This document shows, in pieces, positions 51,530 through 60,397 of a stretch of 64,000 bases of DNA (position 1 is the stretch's first letter; every line of letters begins with the position of its first letter). The DNA comes from Micromonospora sp. BL4 (GTDB lineage Bacteria; Actinomycetota; Actinomycetes; Mycobacteriales; Micromonosporaceae), in contig NZ_RCVJ01000053.1 of the NCBI RefSeq assembly GCF_003667505.1, positions 1-64,000 of the forward strand, read 5' to 3'. Under the pieces are notes generated by a model. The model was given only the letters and a program-made list of their open reading frames with translations, was not told the DNA's origin and made no database searches. The position numbers were made by a program, and so were the translations under genes.

Positions 51530-51922
51530 TCAGCCGGCCCGCAGCAGCTCCGTCATCTCCGGCAGGTCGAAGAACTGCGCCGTCTCCGCCGCGGACGGGT
51601 TGCCGTGCTCCGGGTCGGCGCCGGCGGCGAGCAGCGCGCGGACCGCCTCGGTGCTGCTGCGGAAGACCGCGGCGGCCAGCGCCGTCTGGCCCCGGTCGTT
51701 GCTCCGGGAGTGGTCCGCGCCGCGATCCAGCAGGGCGGCGACCGTGGCCGGGTGCGCGTGGTACGCGGCCAGGATCAGCAGCGTGTCGCCCTTGTCGTTG
51801 GTCAGGTTCACCGGCAGGCCGGCGTCGACCTGCGCGGCAAGCTCCTCCGTGGAGCCGGCGCGTGCCAGGTCGAACATCCGGTGCGCGAACGCCAGCGTCT
51901 CGGCGTCGAGGTCCTCGGTCAC
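51530..51922 (-). CDS. Ankyrin-repeat protein
   Basis: This 130-residue protein has an N-terminal helical cap and three to four ankyrin repeats (NDKGDTLLILAAYHAHPATVAALLDRGAD, then SNDRGQTALAAAVFRSSTEAVRALLAAGADP, then a last FDLPEMTELL half). The helix-loop-helix units start with G-x-T-x-L-x-x-A. Such proteins bind other proteins in the cytoplasm. It is divergent from the cupin-like gene and followed by the DUF3500 gene. Confidence 0.88.
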   Translation of the reverse strand: MTEDLDAETLAFAHRMFDLARAGSTEELAAQVDAGLPVNLTNDKGDTLLILAAYHAHPATVAALLDRGADHSRSNDRGQTALAAAVFRSSTEAVRALLAAGADPEHGNPSAAETAQFFDLPEMTELLRAG

Positions 51923-52474: not shown

Positions 52475-52930
52475 ATGAGCCACCACCGTCCGGAGCCCGA
52501 CCTGCTCGCCCTCGCAACCCGCTGGGCCGATCCGGCCACCTGGCCGGTGGCGTTGCGCTTCGATCCCGCCGAACGCTGGTACGCCCGGCTGGCCGCCGAC
52601 GCCGAGCACGAGGTGTGGGCGCTGAGTTGGCTGCCCGGCCAGGGCACCGGCCTGCACGATCACGGCGGCTCCGCCGGGGCGTTCCGGGTCGTCGCCGGGG
52701 CGCTCACCGAGGAGACGGTCGGCGGCGGTCGGTTGCGCCCGCGCCTGCTGCCCACCGGGGCCGGTCGCCGCTTCGGTCCCCGGCACGTGCACGCGGTGAC
52801 CAACCGGGGCGCGACGCCGGCGGTCAGCGTGCACGTCTACCGGCCGGCGCTGCGCCGGATGACCCGCTACCACCTCCTCGACGGTCGGCTGCGCGTCGCC
52901 GAGGTCGCCGAGGCCGGCCGGTCCTGGTGA
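52475..52930 (+). CDS. Cysteine dioxygenase family protein
   Basis: This 151-residue cupin oxygenase has H61-D-H63-G-G-S in TGLHDHGGSAGAF, the first iron-binding pair. The HVHAVTN segment around 104-110 gives the third His. These fit the cysteine dioxygenase type I family, which oxidises cysteine to cysteine sulfinate. An operator-like palindrome lies 49 bases upstream. It is followed 47 bases later by a rhodanese-type gene, supporting a sulfur-metabolism unit. Confidence 0.87.
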   Translation: MSHHRPEPDLLALATRWADPATWPVALRFDPAERWYARLAADAEHEVWALSWLPGQGTGLHDHGGSAGAFRVVAGALTEETVGGGRLRPRLLPTGAGRRFGPRHVHAVTNRGATPAVSVHVYRPALRRMTRYHLLDGRLRVAEVAEAGRSW

Positions 52931-56262: not shown

Positions 56263-57135
56263 ATGGGTGACATTCTCGTGGGCACCGCTTCCTGGACCGA
56301 CCGCACGCTGCTGGACTCGGGCTGGTATCCGCAGACCGCGGACACGCCGGAGAAGCGGCTGGCGTACTACGCCCGACAGTTTCCGCTGGTCGAGGTGGAC
56401 GCCACCTACTACTCGCCGCCCGCCGAGGCGACCGCGCGGCTCTGGGCCGAGCGCACGCCGGACGGCTTCACCTTCAACATCAAGGCGTTCAGCCTGCTGA
56501 CCGGTCATCCCACGCGGGTCAGCGCGCTCTACAAGGACCTGCGCCCGGAGACCGACAAGAAGAACATCTACCCCGACGACCTGCCCGCGCAGGCGTACGA
56601 GGAGGTGTGGACGCGCTTCCTGTCCGCGCTGGACCCGCTGGTCCAGGTGGGCAAGTTGGGAGCGCTGCTGTTCCAGTTCCCGCCCTGGTTCACCATCAAG
56701 CGGGACAACAAGCAGTACCTGCTGGAGGTGGCGAAGCGCTGCGCGCCGCTGCGCCCGGTCTACGAGTTCCGCCACGCCTCCTGGTTCGACGGCGCCAACG
56801 CCGACGAGACCCTCGCCTTCCTGCGCGAGCACCGGCTGCCGTACGTCTGCGTGGACATGCCGCAGGGTCACCGCTCGTCGTTGCCCCCGGTGCTGGCCGC
56901 GACCGCGGACCTCGCCGTTGTGCGCTTCCACGGCCACAGCGACAAGTGGACTAGCAAGGACATCCACGAGAAGTTCGGCTACCACTACTCCAAGCGGGAG
57001 CTGGCCGACTGGGCGCCGAAGCTGCGCGAGCTGGCCGACGAGGCCGGGCAGACGCACGTGCTGATGAACAACTGCTACCGCGACTACGCGCAGACGAACG
57101 CGAAGACCCTGGCCGGGCTGCTCGGCGCGGACTGA
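56263..57135 (+). CDS. DUF72 domain protein, copy 1
   Basis: This 290-residue TIM-barrel-like protein opens LVGTASWTDRTLLDSGWYP and has VEVDATYYSPP, a DGFTFNIKAFSLLTGH run, LGALLFQFPPWF, VYEFRHASWF and a final TGQTHVLMNNCYRDYAQTNA. These are DUF72 landmarks. The catalytic-looking acidic and aromatic residues suggest an enzyme, but the substrate is unknown. A second DUF72 gene lies at 57928 on the opposite strand; the two differ clearly in sequence. Confidence 0.88.
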   Translation: MGDILVGTASWTDRTLLDSGWYPQTADTPEKRLAYYARQFPLVEVDATYYSPPAEATARLWAERTPDGFTFNIKAFSLLTGHPTRVSALYKDLRPETDKKNIYPDDLPAQAYEEVWTRFLSALDPLVQVGKLGALLFQFPPWFTIKRDNKQYLLEVAKRCAPLRPVYEFRHASWFDGANADETLAFLREHRLPYVCVDMPQGHRSSLPPVLAATADLAVVRFHGHSDKWTSKDIHEKFGYHYSKRELADWAPKLRELADEAGQTHVLMNNCYRDYAQTNAKTLAGLLGAD

Positions 57136-57927: not shown

Positions 57928-58713
57928 TCAGCCGTCGGAGGTGGCCGGGTCCCTCGGCGGTGCGGACGGCACCCGGGACACCGGATGGCCGGCCCGGCTG
58001 GCCAGGGCGGCGAACGCGACGGCGTCCACGATGGCGGCGCCGCCAGGATCGTTGTTGAAGTAGACGTACGCCGGCTCGTCCGCGCCGAAGGCGTCGGCCA
58101 GCCGGCGCACCCAGGAGGCGAGCGCGGTGCGACCGTACCGGGGCCAGGGCCGGGCCCGTCCCTCGTGCAGCCGCAGGTAGCCGAAGTCGGTGGTGCGCCA
58201 GCGCGGGGCGACCGGGCGGCCGAGCCGGTCCGCCCAGACCAGCGCCGCCCGCCGGCGCTCCAGCACCCCGCGGGTGGCGTCGGTCCACCACGAGGGGTGC
58301 CGCGGCTCCACCGCCACCCGCACCTCGGCCGGAAACAGCCGCAGCGTCGCGTCGAGCGCGTCGACGTTCGCCGGCAGGTTCGGTGGGAGTTGCAGCAGGA
58401 CCGGGCCGAGCCGGTCACCGAGCGCGGTCGCCCGGCCGAGGAACCGGGCCACCGGCTCCTCCGGGTCGCGCAGCCGCTTGATGTGGGTCAGGTAGCGGCT
58501 CATCTTGACCGCCACACAGAAATCCGCGGGGGTCCGGGCCCGCCAGGCGGCGAAGGTGTCCCGCTCGGGCAGCCGGTAGAAGGCGTTGTTGACCTCGACG
58601 GTGGCGAACCCGGCCGCGAAGTGCTCCAGCCAGAGCCGCTGCGGCAGCGTCTGCGGATAGAAGCGGCCGCGCCAGTCGCGGTACTGCCAGCCGGAGGTGC
58701 CCACCAGGATCAT
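57928..58713 (-). CDS. DUF72 domain protein, copy 2
   Basis: This 261-residue TIM-barrel-type protein opens MILVGTSGWQYRDWRGRFYP, with VEVNNAFYRLP, CVAVKMSRYLTHIKRL, GPVLLQLPPNLPANV and VYFNNDPGGAAIVDA. It matches the more common DUF72 (YecE-like) subfamily. The ATG at 58713 follows GAAGGG. It lies convergent with the DUF2267 gene and divergent from the repeat-peptide gene. Function is unknown. Confidence 0.9.
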   Translation of the reverse strand: MILVGTSGWQYRDWRGRFYPQTLPQRLWLEHFAAGFATVEVNNAFYRLPERDTFAAWRARTPADFCVAVKMSRYLTHIKRLRDPEEPVARFLGRATALGDRLGPVLLQLPPNLPANVDALDATLRLFPAEVRVAVEPRHPSWWTDATRGVLERRRAALVWADRLGRPVAPRWRTTDFGYLRLHEGRARPWPRYGRTALASWVRRLADAFGADEPAYVYFNNDPGGAAIVDAVAFAALASRAGHPVSRVPSAPPRDPATSDG

Positions 58714-58869: not shown

Positions 58870-59112
58870 ATGGCACTCAACGATGACGACATGCAGACCA
58901 CGGGCGGCGGCGGCCTGGAGGGCCCGGCCGACGGTGGTGCGACCCCGGGTCGCCAGGACGGTGGCGCGGACGGCGGCGCCGAGGGCCCGGCCGACGGCGG
59001 CGCGACGCCCGGCCAGCAGGACGGTGGCGCCGATGGTGGCGCCGAGGGCCCCGCGGACGGCGGTGCGACCCCGGGCCAGCAGGACGGCGGCGCCGACGGC
59101 AGCGCCCGCTGA
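58870..59112 (+). CDS. 80-residue protein of three 21-residue ADGGA repeats
   Basis: A 16-residue leader-like N-terminus (MALNDDDMQTTGGGGL) is followed by three consecutive 21-residue units of the form EGPADGGATPG(R/Q)QDGGADGGA (residues 17-37, 38-58, 59-79) and a final Arg. Units are 63 bases each (58918-58980, 58981-59043, 59044-59106) and almost identical at DNA level. The composition (Gly, Ala, Asp, Gln) is hydrophilic and unstructured, with no signal peptide. The ATG has GAGGGAG close upstream. A JmjC/cupin oxygenase gene starts 10 bases after its stop. The peptide is a plausible multi-core substrate of that oxygenase. Confidence 0.8.
   Translation: MALNDDDMQTTGGGGLEGPADGGATPGRQDGGADGGAEGPADGGATPGQQDGGADGGAEGPADGGATPGQQDGGADGSAR
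58918..59106 (+). repeat. Three 63-base tandem repeats inside small gene
   Basis: Three in-frame copies of 63 bases each begin at 58918, 58981 and 59044. They encode 21-residue units that differ only at the R/Q position and near the end of the last copy. Confidence 0.85.
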
Positions 59113-59122
59113 CGGCATCACC

Positions 59123-60397
59123 ATGACGCATCTCGACCCGCCGGGCGGCCACGGTCGCCCGGCGGTTCCGTCCGCGCCCGCCACCGCCGCGCTGGCCCGC
59201 TGCGTCTCGGTCGAGCCGGCCAAGTTCGCCGCCGCGCACTGGGGGCACACCCCGCTGCTGTCCCGCGCCGCCGAGCTGCCCGACCCGGCCGGTTTCACCG
59301 ACCTGTTCAGCCCCGCCGACGCCGACGAGCTGCTCAGCCGGCGCGGTCTGCGTACCCCCTTCCTGCGCATCGCCAAGGACGGGCAGCTCGTGCCGGCGGC
59401 GCGCTGGACCGGCGGCGGCGGCGCCGGCGCGGAGATCGGCGACCAGGTGCTCGACGAGCGGGTCCTGGAGCAGTACGCGGCCGGGGCCACCCTGGTGCTG
59501 CAGGGCCTGCACCGCATCTGGCCGCCGCTGATCGACTTCGCCCGCGACCTGGGTCTCGCGCTGACCCAGCCGTTGCAGATCAACGCCTACCTCACCCCGG
59601 CGGGCAGCCAGGGCTTCGCCACCCACTACGACACCCACGACGTGTTCGTGCTCCAGGTCGACGGTCGCAAACACTGGCGGATCCACCCGCCGGTGCTGCC
59701 GGACCCGCTGGAGAAGCAGCCCTGGGGCGGCCGCGCCGACGAGGTCGGGGCCACCGCGCAGGGCCGGGCCGCGCTGGACGTGGTGCTCGCCCCCGGCGAC
59801 GCGCTCTACCTGCCACGTGGCTGGCTGCACAGCGCGCAGGCGCAGGAGGCCAGCTCGCTGCATCTGACCGTGGGCATCCGCGCGTTGACCCGGTACGCCC
59901 TGGTCGAGGAGCTGCTCGCCCTCGCCGCCGAGGACCAGCGCCTGCGGGCCAGCCTGCCGTTCGGCACCGACGTCGCCGACCCGGACGCCATCGAGCCGGA
60001 GCTGACCGAGACGGTGGAGGCGCTGCGGGACTGGCTGCTGCGCGCCGATCCGGGCGCCGTCGCGGCGCGGCTGCGGCAGCGGGCCTGGCCGGCCGCCCGC
60101 CCGGCGCCGATCCGGCCGCTCGCCCAGGCCGGCGCATTGGCCACGCTGAACGCCGACTCCCGGCTCACCCCGCGTCCGGGCCTGCGCTGGCAGCTCGCGC
60201 CGCACGGGCCGGACACGGTGGCGCTGCGGCTGTTCGACCGCGCCATCACCCTGCCCGCCGACTGCGAGCCCGCCGTCCGCACCCTGCTCACCGGTGGAGT
60301 CGTCCGGGTCGGTGACCTGCCCGGGCTGCCCGACGACGCCGACCGGGTCACCCTCGCCCGCCGGCTGCTGCGCGAGGCCGTCCTGGTCCCGGCCTGA
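59123..60397 (+). CDS. JmjC/cupin_8 Fe(II)/2-oxoglutarate oxygenase
   Basis: This 424-residue protein has a JmjC-type double-stranded beta-helix at about residues 70-260. H168-Y-D170 in the segment around 165-185 (HYDTHDVFVLQVDGRKHW) and H236 in LYLPRGWLHSA form the HxD...H iron triad. K184-region and R/W residues fit 2-oxoglutarate binding. A helical C-terminal domain follows, as in RoxA/YcfD, MINA53 and NO66 ribosomal-protein hydroxylases. It is ten bases downstream of the repeat-peptide gene and almost certainly in the same operon, making that peptide a likely substrate. Confidence 0.88.
   Translation: MTHLDPPGGHGRPAVPSAPATAALARCVSVEPAKFAAAHWGHTPLLSRAAELPDPAGFTDLFSPADADELLSRRGLRTPFLRIAKDGQLVPAARWTGGGGAGAEIGDQVLDERVLEQYAAGATLVLQGLHRIWPPLIDFARDLGLALTQPLQINAYLTPAGSQGFATHYDTHDVFVLQVDGRKHWRIHPPVLPDPLEKQPWGGRADEVGATAQGRAALDVVLAPGDALYLPRGWLHSAQAQEASSLHLTVGIRALTRYALVEELLALAAEDQRLRASLPFGTDVADPDAIEPELTETVEALRDWLLRADPGAVAARLRQRAWPAARPAPIRPLAQAGALATLNADSRLTPRPGLRWQLAPHGPDTVALRLFDRAITLPADCEPAVRTLLTGGVVRVGDLPGLPDDADRVTLARRLLREAVLVPA

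Follow-up and report, generated by a model that had tools for sequence, protein, structure and literature searches.

An aspartate-rich repeat peptide encoded beside a JmjC oxygenase: a widespread RiPP-like gene pair of actinobacteria with aspartate hydroxylation as the likeliest chemistry

The question raised by this locus of Micromonospora sp. BL4 is whether a small aspartate-rich repeat peptide is the substrate of the JmjC-type oxygenase encoded immediately downstream of it and, if so, which of its residues are modified. The window is the whole 64,000-nucleotide stretch of DNA that was analysed. The peptide gene, the proposed precursor gene (58870–59112, + strand), begins with the ATG at 58870, ends with a stop codon at 59110–59112 and encodes an 80-aa, Asp-rich product. 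This consists of a 16-aa head, MALNDDDMQTTGGGGL (58870–58917), a putative leader with LNDDDM as its candidate recognition motif, followed by three in-register 21-aa units that start at 58918, 58981 and 59044 (EGPADGGATPGRQDGGADGGA, 58918–58980; EGPADGGATPGQQDGGADGGA, 58981–59043; EGPADGGATPGQQDGGADGSA, 59044–59106) and a terminal Arg, so that repeated cores are present within one candidate precursor. The unit consensus is EGPADGGATPGxQDGGADG(G/S)A; the peptide contains no His, and the units contain one Arg. An earlier note, made from the sequence alone, had described an 80-residue protein with a 16-residue head and three 21-residue repeats, ten bases upstream of the oxygenase gene; the coordinates and the translation agree with it in each of these points (the peptide gene ends at 59112 and the oxygenase gene starts at 59123), and the occurrence of a repeat peptide beside a JmjC oxygenase is real. 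No family model in NCBIfam or Pfam matches the window peptide, and no NCBIfam model matches five peptides from relatives. The DGGADG signature has ten matches in the window's genome, three in the peptide gene and seven in unrelated or wrong-frame ORFs. Pairwise, the three repeats of the window differ at 6–8 synonymous and 1–2 nonsynonymous codons.

The downstream gene (59123–60397, + strand) encodes a 424-aa Fe(II)/2-oxoglutarate-type oxygenase of the JmjC_2 family (PF08007, E 3.6e-29), which in Pfam matches JmjC_2 and cupin models only and in NCBIfam matches no model; the DUF692 (MNIO) model gave no match at E up to 1. The complete HxD...H triad noted earlier is positioned correctly, with iron ligands H168 and D170 (59624–59632) and H236 (59828–59830). 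These residues, together with N154 and with K183 (59669–59671), which aligns with a Lys of NO66 and which we take to bind 2-oxoglutarate, are conserved without exception in an alignment of 73 diverse homologues (10 of the 110 Micromonosporaceae loci L001–L110 were included, and L155, L160, L177, L181 and L202 were omitted from L135–L202 as short or repeated). When the AlphaFold2 model (pLDDT 94.1) was compared with solved structures using Foldseek, NO66 was the nearest (E 3.5e-27), followed by MINA53, YcfD and YxbC, with FIH far weaker. NO66 (RIOX1), MINA53 (RIOX2) and YcfD/RoxA share with the window protein the JmjC_2 domain, the triad, the aligned Lys and a C-terminal winged helix, so that the fold is that of the ribosomal oxygenases. 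Identity to NO66 in the fold alignment is 24–25 %, however, and the window protein differs in being linked to a repeat peptide without His in its units.

The association between the two genes was examined in upstream DNA at 228 loci (L001–L202 and L243–L268), 198 of which are distinct as judged by the central part of the oxygenase gene. At 193 of these 198 an Asp-rich small ORF ends next to the oxygenase start; the five misses are four contig ends (L074, L080, L091 and L160) and one gap of Ns (L071), and a partial repeat peptide is still visible in L071, L074, L080 and L091. All 193 peptides pass the strict form of the Asp-rich ORF test, which was passed at 6 of 1677 positions drawn at random from 30 comparable loci (34 of 1677 for the loose form), a background of 0.4–2 %. 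Since the loci were chosen by oxygenase homology and 102 are Micromonosporaceae, the 193 are not independent events, and the weight of the linkage is therefore carried by the 91 loci from other families. One locus, L144, is doubtful as a pair because its upstream ORF, which passes the cut, is acidic and without repeats. In the reverse direction, the EGPADGGA codon pattern, which is narrow and blind to variant peptides in many oxygenase-bearing genomes, matches in 17 of 246 genomes of a class sample. In 12 of the 17 the matching ORF has repeats and is directly followed by the oxygenase gene, and all ten genomes with at least two matches are among these; in the other five the matching ORFs have no repeats and the 3-kb locus contains no oxygenase. 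An adjacent, dedicated modifying enzyme, as looked for in a RiPP system, is thus present in both directions (193/198 and 12/12).

The oxygenase itself was found in 48 of 61 relatives by whole-genome search (E <= 1e-10), in 166 of 298 genomes of the order and 42 of 296 of a phylum sample (both E <= 1e-30), and in 77 of 246 of the class sample at the looser E <= 1e-15, which includes distant homologues. Of 355 confirmed stretches in the genome scan the 80 best were kept, and by name all of these are Micromonosporaceae, from genera that we take to belong to that family (Micromonospora, Verrucosispora, Salinispora, Plantactinospora, Asanoa, Paractinoplanes, Actinoplanes, Jidongwangia and one further member). 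The earlier note had looked to actinomycete genomes for recurrence of the pair, and it does recur there, with 1–6 exact units per locus in Micromonosporaceae; oxygenase homologues that lack the repeat gene in nearly all genomes, which the same note had named as the observation that would speak against its proposal, were not seen within the oxygenase clade.

That clade has a boundary. In a tree of 93 oxygenases the Asp-repeat loci group together with a support of 0.82, with L144 and L281 inside the group; L281 has no Asp-rich ORF in the upstream position. More distant JmjC_2 proteins (about 27–36 % identity) are not accompanied by the Asp-repeat peptide: there is no Asp-rich repeat ORF upstream of L269–L273, and a 35–37-aa MDPIEVEVEDLAEVTSRDITAGGDSDGTDSSSDFI-like peptide is encoded upstream of the distant JmjC_2 genes at L274, L275, L278 and L280. 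Since such copies either have no Asp-rich ORF or have other peptides, the Asp-repeat peptide characterises one clade, and the JmjC_2 clades next to it may have precursors of their own. In another distant clade (L276, L277 and L279) ORFs of 40–50 aa with SDGGGTGRSDGND-like tails lie upstream of the JmjC_2 gene, possibly as a further precursor type. Near three loci of the MDPIEVEVEDLAEVTSRDITAGGDSDGTDSSSDFI-like clade, for which L304, L305 and L310 were considered alongside the four named above, genes for an MFS transporter and for a [2Fe-2S] protein of the FhuF_C type recur.

Within the Asp-repeat clade the peptides vary. Between one and six exact 21-aa units are present per locus in 81 Micromonosporaceae loci, including truncated ones. 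Across families the core passes from 21-aa units through EGPADGGSNPxGHDGGADGTA to (DGGA)n and, in deep branches, to DADGTDGDATDGTDGD; along this series the Asp residues are spaced first by 4, 8 and 9, next mostly by 4 and finally by 3 and 2, and Asp is never lost. A head motif of the type [LIV]xD[DE]D[IM] is seen in most peptides, in forms such as LNDDDM, LSDDDI, LDDDDM and LTDEDI, with 8 of the 193 giving no match in a motif search, so that these peptides have the conserved head and variable or repeated core of short RiPP precursors. Extra DRGAERGADQGAD-type spacer stretches lie between the 21-aa units in L010, L012 and L104, and are much expanded in the last of these. On a deep branch, L152 has a different repeat, SADGTDQGVxGGTYGPRDA, in an ORF that ends just upstream of the oxygenase.

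The regular expression used to separate heads from cores misplaced some cores (for example in L163, L178 and L254), and residue counts were therefore taken from the 45-residue tails of the 193 peptides (102 Micromonosporaceae and 91 from other families, summed). Asp, the one polar residue common to every core, and Ala are present in all 193 tails, Gly in 192, Ser in 175, Pro in 162, Thr in 161, Glu in 151, His in 126, Gln in 122, Arg in 99 and Asn in 32; the tail of L259 contains D, G and A only, and in Micromonosporaceae 99 % of core Asp residues are directly followed by Gly. The earlier note had offered Asp, Gln or Pro as the modified residue, and of these three Asp alone is universal, Pro and Gln being less frequent. 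His and Arg, presumably the residues hydroxylated by NO66, MINA53 and YcfD, are absent from many tails, and His from the window peptide altogether; neither is thus a shared target, which leaves Asp as the best candidate. At the ten columns of the Micromonosporaceae repeat unit not fixed by the search pattern, pS is 0.47 and pN is 0.11 (267 units from 81 loci, 248 of them distinct in DNA and 120 of those compared). Judged from these codons the repeats are under purifying selection, which preserves the protein product.

The C-terminal part of the oxygenase (residues 330–424; 60110–60394, + strand) is predicted to form a winged-helix, RRE-like domain, the proposed leader binder (modelled alone, pLDDT 92.0; compared by Foldseek and VIA-align). 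The best matches to these 95 residues are the same domains of MINA53 and NO66 (Z 10.1–13.2), and those that follow are for the most part RiPP recognition elements (RREs) or RiPP enzymes that carry one, among them PqqD (Z 7.5 over 82 residues, 2.6 A), followed by TigE (7.1), TbiB1 with its leader (6.7) and MccB with MccA (6.6) and, lower, by PbtF and ThcOx (both 6.3), McbB (6.1), the heterocyclase 4v1v (6.0) and TruD (5.8). Unrelated-looking proteins match equally well, however, including a methyltransferase (Z 8.1) and carbamoyltransferases (about 7; GdmN 7.1), and Z values below 8 are middling by the scale of the tool and may reflect a common arrangement. No match to the PqqD/RRE Pfam models was found among 73 C-terminal domains, so that the likeness to RREs is one of compared folds; and since the ribosomal oxygenases have the same winged helix, the domain need not bind a leader. 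Given the run of RRE matches we nevertheless describe it, with caution, as RRE-like. Leader-binding domains of the RRE kind are frequent in RiPP systems, though not present in all.

At 45 of 54 loci outside Micromonosporaceae the oxygenase gene is followed on the same strand by a Suc_Fer-like gene (PF06999; three examples gave E 1.3e-13 to 5.6e-18), the exceptions being L136, L144, L152, L155 (a contig end), L245, L246, L252, L254 and L263. No match to this gene was found in the flanks, some of them short, of the 80 Micromonosporaceae loci kept from the genome scan, nor was PF06999 found in the window's genome by a search that matched 4 of 14 control genomes, two of them over the cut-off. As Micromonosporaceae do without it, the gene is not essential to the pair. 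Suc_Fer-like proteins carry a [2Fe-2S] ferredoxin-like domain, and this one could keep the iron of the enzyme reduced or act on product-bound metal. The flanking genes in the window encode DUF72, DUF2267, an unassigned membrane-type ORF and FtsK/SpoIIIE, with no recognised protease or transporter beside the pair. Among 61 Micromonosporaceae loci with full flanks DUF72 is present at 30 and the membrane-type ORF at 57, against none of 20 loci in other families, and we therefore regard both as lineage synteny. Crude ORF clustering of 30 neighbourhoods returned only the oxygenase (27 loci) and the Suc_Fer-like gene (16 loci) as widely recurring, the next clusters having six loci (an apparent antisense ORF) and five.

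Some further features of the region were noted. There are two DUF72 genes within 2.5 kb (56263–57132, +; 57931–58713, −), the second divergent from the peptide gene, and genes for a small ankyrin-repeat protein (51533–51922, −) and a type I cysteine dioxygenase (52475–52927, +) lie less than 1 kb apart. An iron-control box was sought at 153 loci with a 19-base IdeR-type consensus and one base shuffle per locus; at least 12 identities were reached in one observed upstream sequence and in 13 shuffled ones, and the box was rejected as a sign of iron control since the best upstream match is no better than in the shuffles.

We think it probable that the pair is a minimal RiPP-type operon, in which a JmjC enzyme, guided by an RRE, adds hydroxyl groups to Asp within the DG repeats of its precursor. 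The head of the peptide, with its LNDDDM motif, would be held by the C-terminal winged helix of the oxygenase, which would bring the flexible repeats within reach of the JmjC pocket with its Fe(II) and 2-oxoglutarate; there the Asp residues that recur in the DG motifs would be hydroxylated, several times per peptide and most likely on the beta carbon. Our guess is that the modified peptide is left intact and binds metal ions (Ca or Fe), and that in other families the Suc_Fer-like third gene might help in this binding. That the repeat peptide is very probably the substrate of the oxygenase, in the style of a RiPP, is argued by its conserved head and repeated core, by the adjacent enzyme with an RRE-like domain and by the near-constant linkage. 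The wider proposal of a beta-hydroxyaspartate-rich RiPP class across actinobacteria, in which a JmjC enzyme bearing its own RRE would place many hydroxy-Asp metal ligands in DG-repeat peptides, with products that are metal-binding (iron/calcium) polymers and with Suc_Fer-like proteins (in a distant clade also an FhuF_C protein) handling metal or electrons, we regard as possible but doubtful. The pair might instead carry out another chemistry, which seems to us unlikely: Gly might be hydroxylated at C-alpha, with cleavage or amidation as the outcome; Ala, Thr, Gln or Pro might be oxidised; or Asp might be oxidised further than the hydroxyl, for example to aminomalonate. Gly and Ala are as good as universal in the tails (192 and 193 of 193), but Pro, Gln and Thr are absent from many, and the known JmjC hydroxylases of this family modify side chains. 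The step from Asp to aminomalonate has a precedent in a graspetide cluster (cited in the accessible part of PMC13097080).

The earlier note had proposed the repeats as the serially modified units of a candidate multi-core RiPP or repeat-hydroxylation system. Comparison supports its view of them as a RiPP-like substrate and not the cutting into separate cores, as neither a protease nor a transporter was recognised next to the pair in the window. The repeat number also drifts, with one to six exact units in Micromonosporaceae and (DGGA)n runs elsewhere, which fits one multiply modified peptide as well as many small products. We consider it improbable that the modified repeats are cut into separate small exported peptides: the discrete 21-aa units of Micromonosporaceae and the MFS gene near three loci of the distant short-peptide clade are in keeping with this, but the genes flanking the pair in the window and the two gene types that recur among the 30 neighbourhoods are not, and elsewhere the units dissolve into (DGGA)n with no evident cut site. 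It is very unlikely that the enzyme acts on a ribosomal protein and that the repeat peptide is a regulator or a translated leader; NO66, MINA53 and YcfD are its closest solved relatives over the whole fold, winged helix included, yet identity to NO66 is low, the peptide is conserved in its amino-acid sequence and recurs at almost every locus of the clade, and the more distant JmjC_2 copies are without it. Lastly, the Asp- and Gly-rich sequence of the 193 peptides and the Suc_Fer-like neighbour in other families would suit an unmodified partner, such as an acidic metal buffer feeding iron to the enzyme. We know of no unmodified acidic peptide partner of a JmjC enzyme, however, and a head motif together with an RRE-like domain is presumably the usual layout of a substrate, and we think this explanation highly improbable.

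Precedents exist for parts of the hydroxylating operon that we favour. The graspetide cluster with SmaO and SmaX, from which we know of no repeat peptide, resembles it in chemistry. In the accessible part of PMC13097080, SmaO/SmaX are cited for beta-hydroxylation of precursor Asp, the likeness to the system proposed here, together with a two-step route from Asp to aminomalonate; the difference is that they are part of a graspetide cluster. JmjC/cupin-like hydroxylases (BipG, BpmG and PbsQ) act on the ribosomal precursor of the biphenomycin RiPPs, but each belongs to a larger cluster with several enzymes and hydroxylates ornithine, according to the accessible parts of PMC12707348 and PMC12257519; the window enzyme, compared with them by description only, is the sole modifying enzyme and has an Asp-repeat peptide. 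According to a 2025 survey of RREs, PF08007 proteins of fish and algae carry RRE-like domains, and bacterial homologues that are about 30 % identical occur in RiPP-like contexts; the Pfam domain and the fused RRE-like fold are shared with the window protein, whereas Asp-repeat precursors and the operon are absent from the accessible part of that survey (PMC12710340). Bufferins are likewise made from small operons of a precursor and an iron oxygenase, with metal binding proposed (accessible part of PMC12452194), although that oxygenase is an MNIO rather than a JmjC enzyme and metal binding by the product of the window pair is a guess. The earlier note knew of no described class for this combination, and a literature search found no description of the pair either, nor the string ADGGADGG in the text searched; most subscription journals and supplements lie outside its coverage, and an earlier description is possible.

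The pair is real, widespread and little-studied, and is best filed as RiPP-like with Asp hydroxylation as its likeliest chemistry. If this reading is true, it would represent a family of JmjC enzymes, both large and simple, that modify peptides encoded in genetic linkage with them, and being a two-gene system it would be easy to rebuild and engineer. It would also connect the leader-binding domains of RiPP enzymes in evolution, and in a way that is directly testable, with the winged helix found in human NO66 and MINA53. Should the product prove rich in hydroxy-Asp, these bacteria, better known as makers of antibiotics than of anything else, may use their ribosomes to produce a polymer that binds metal.
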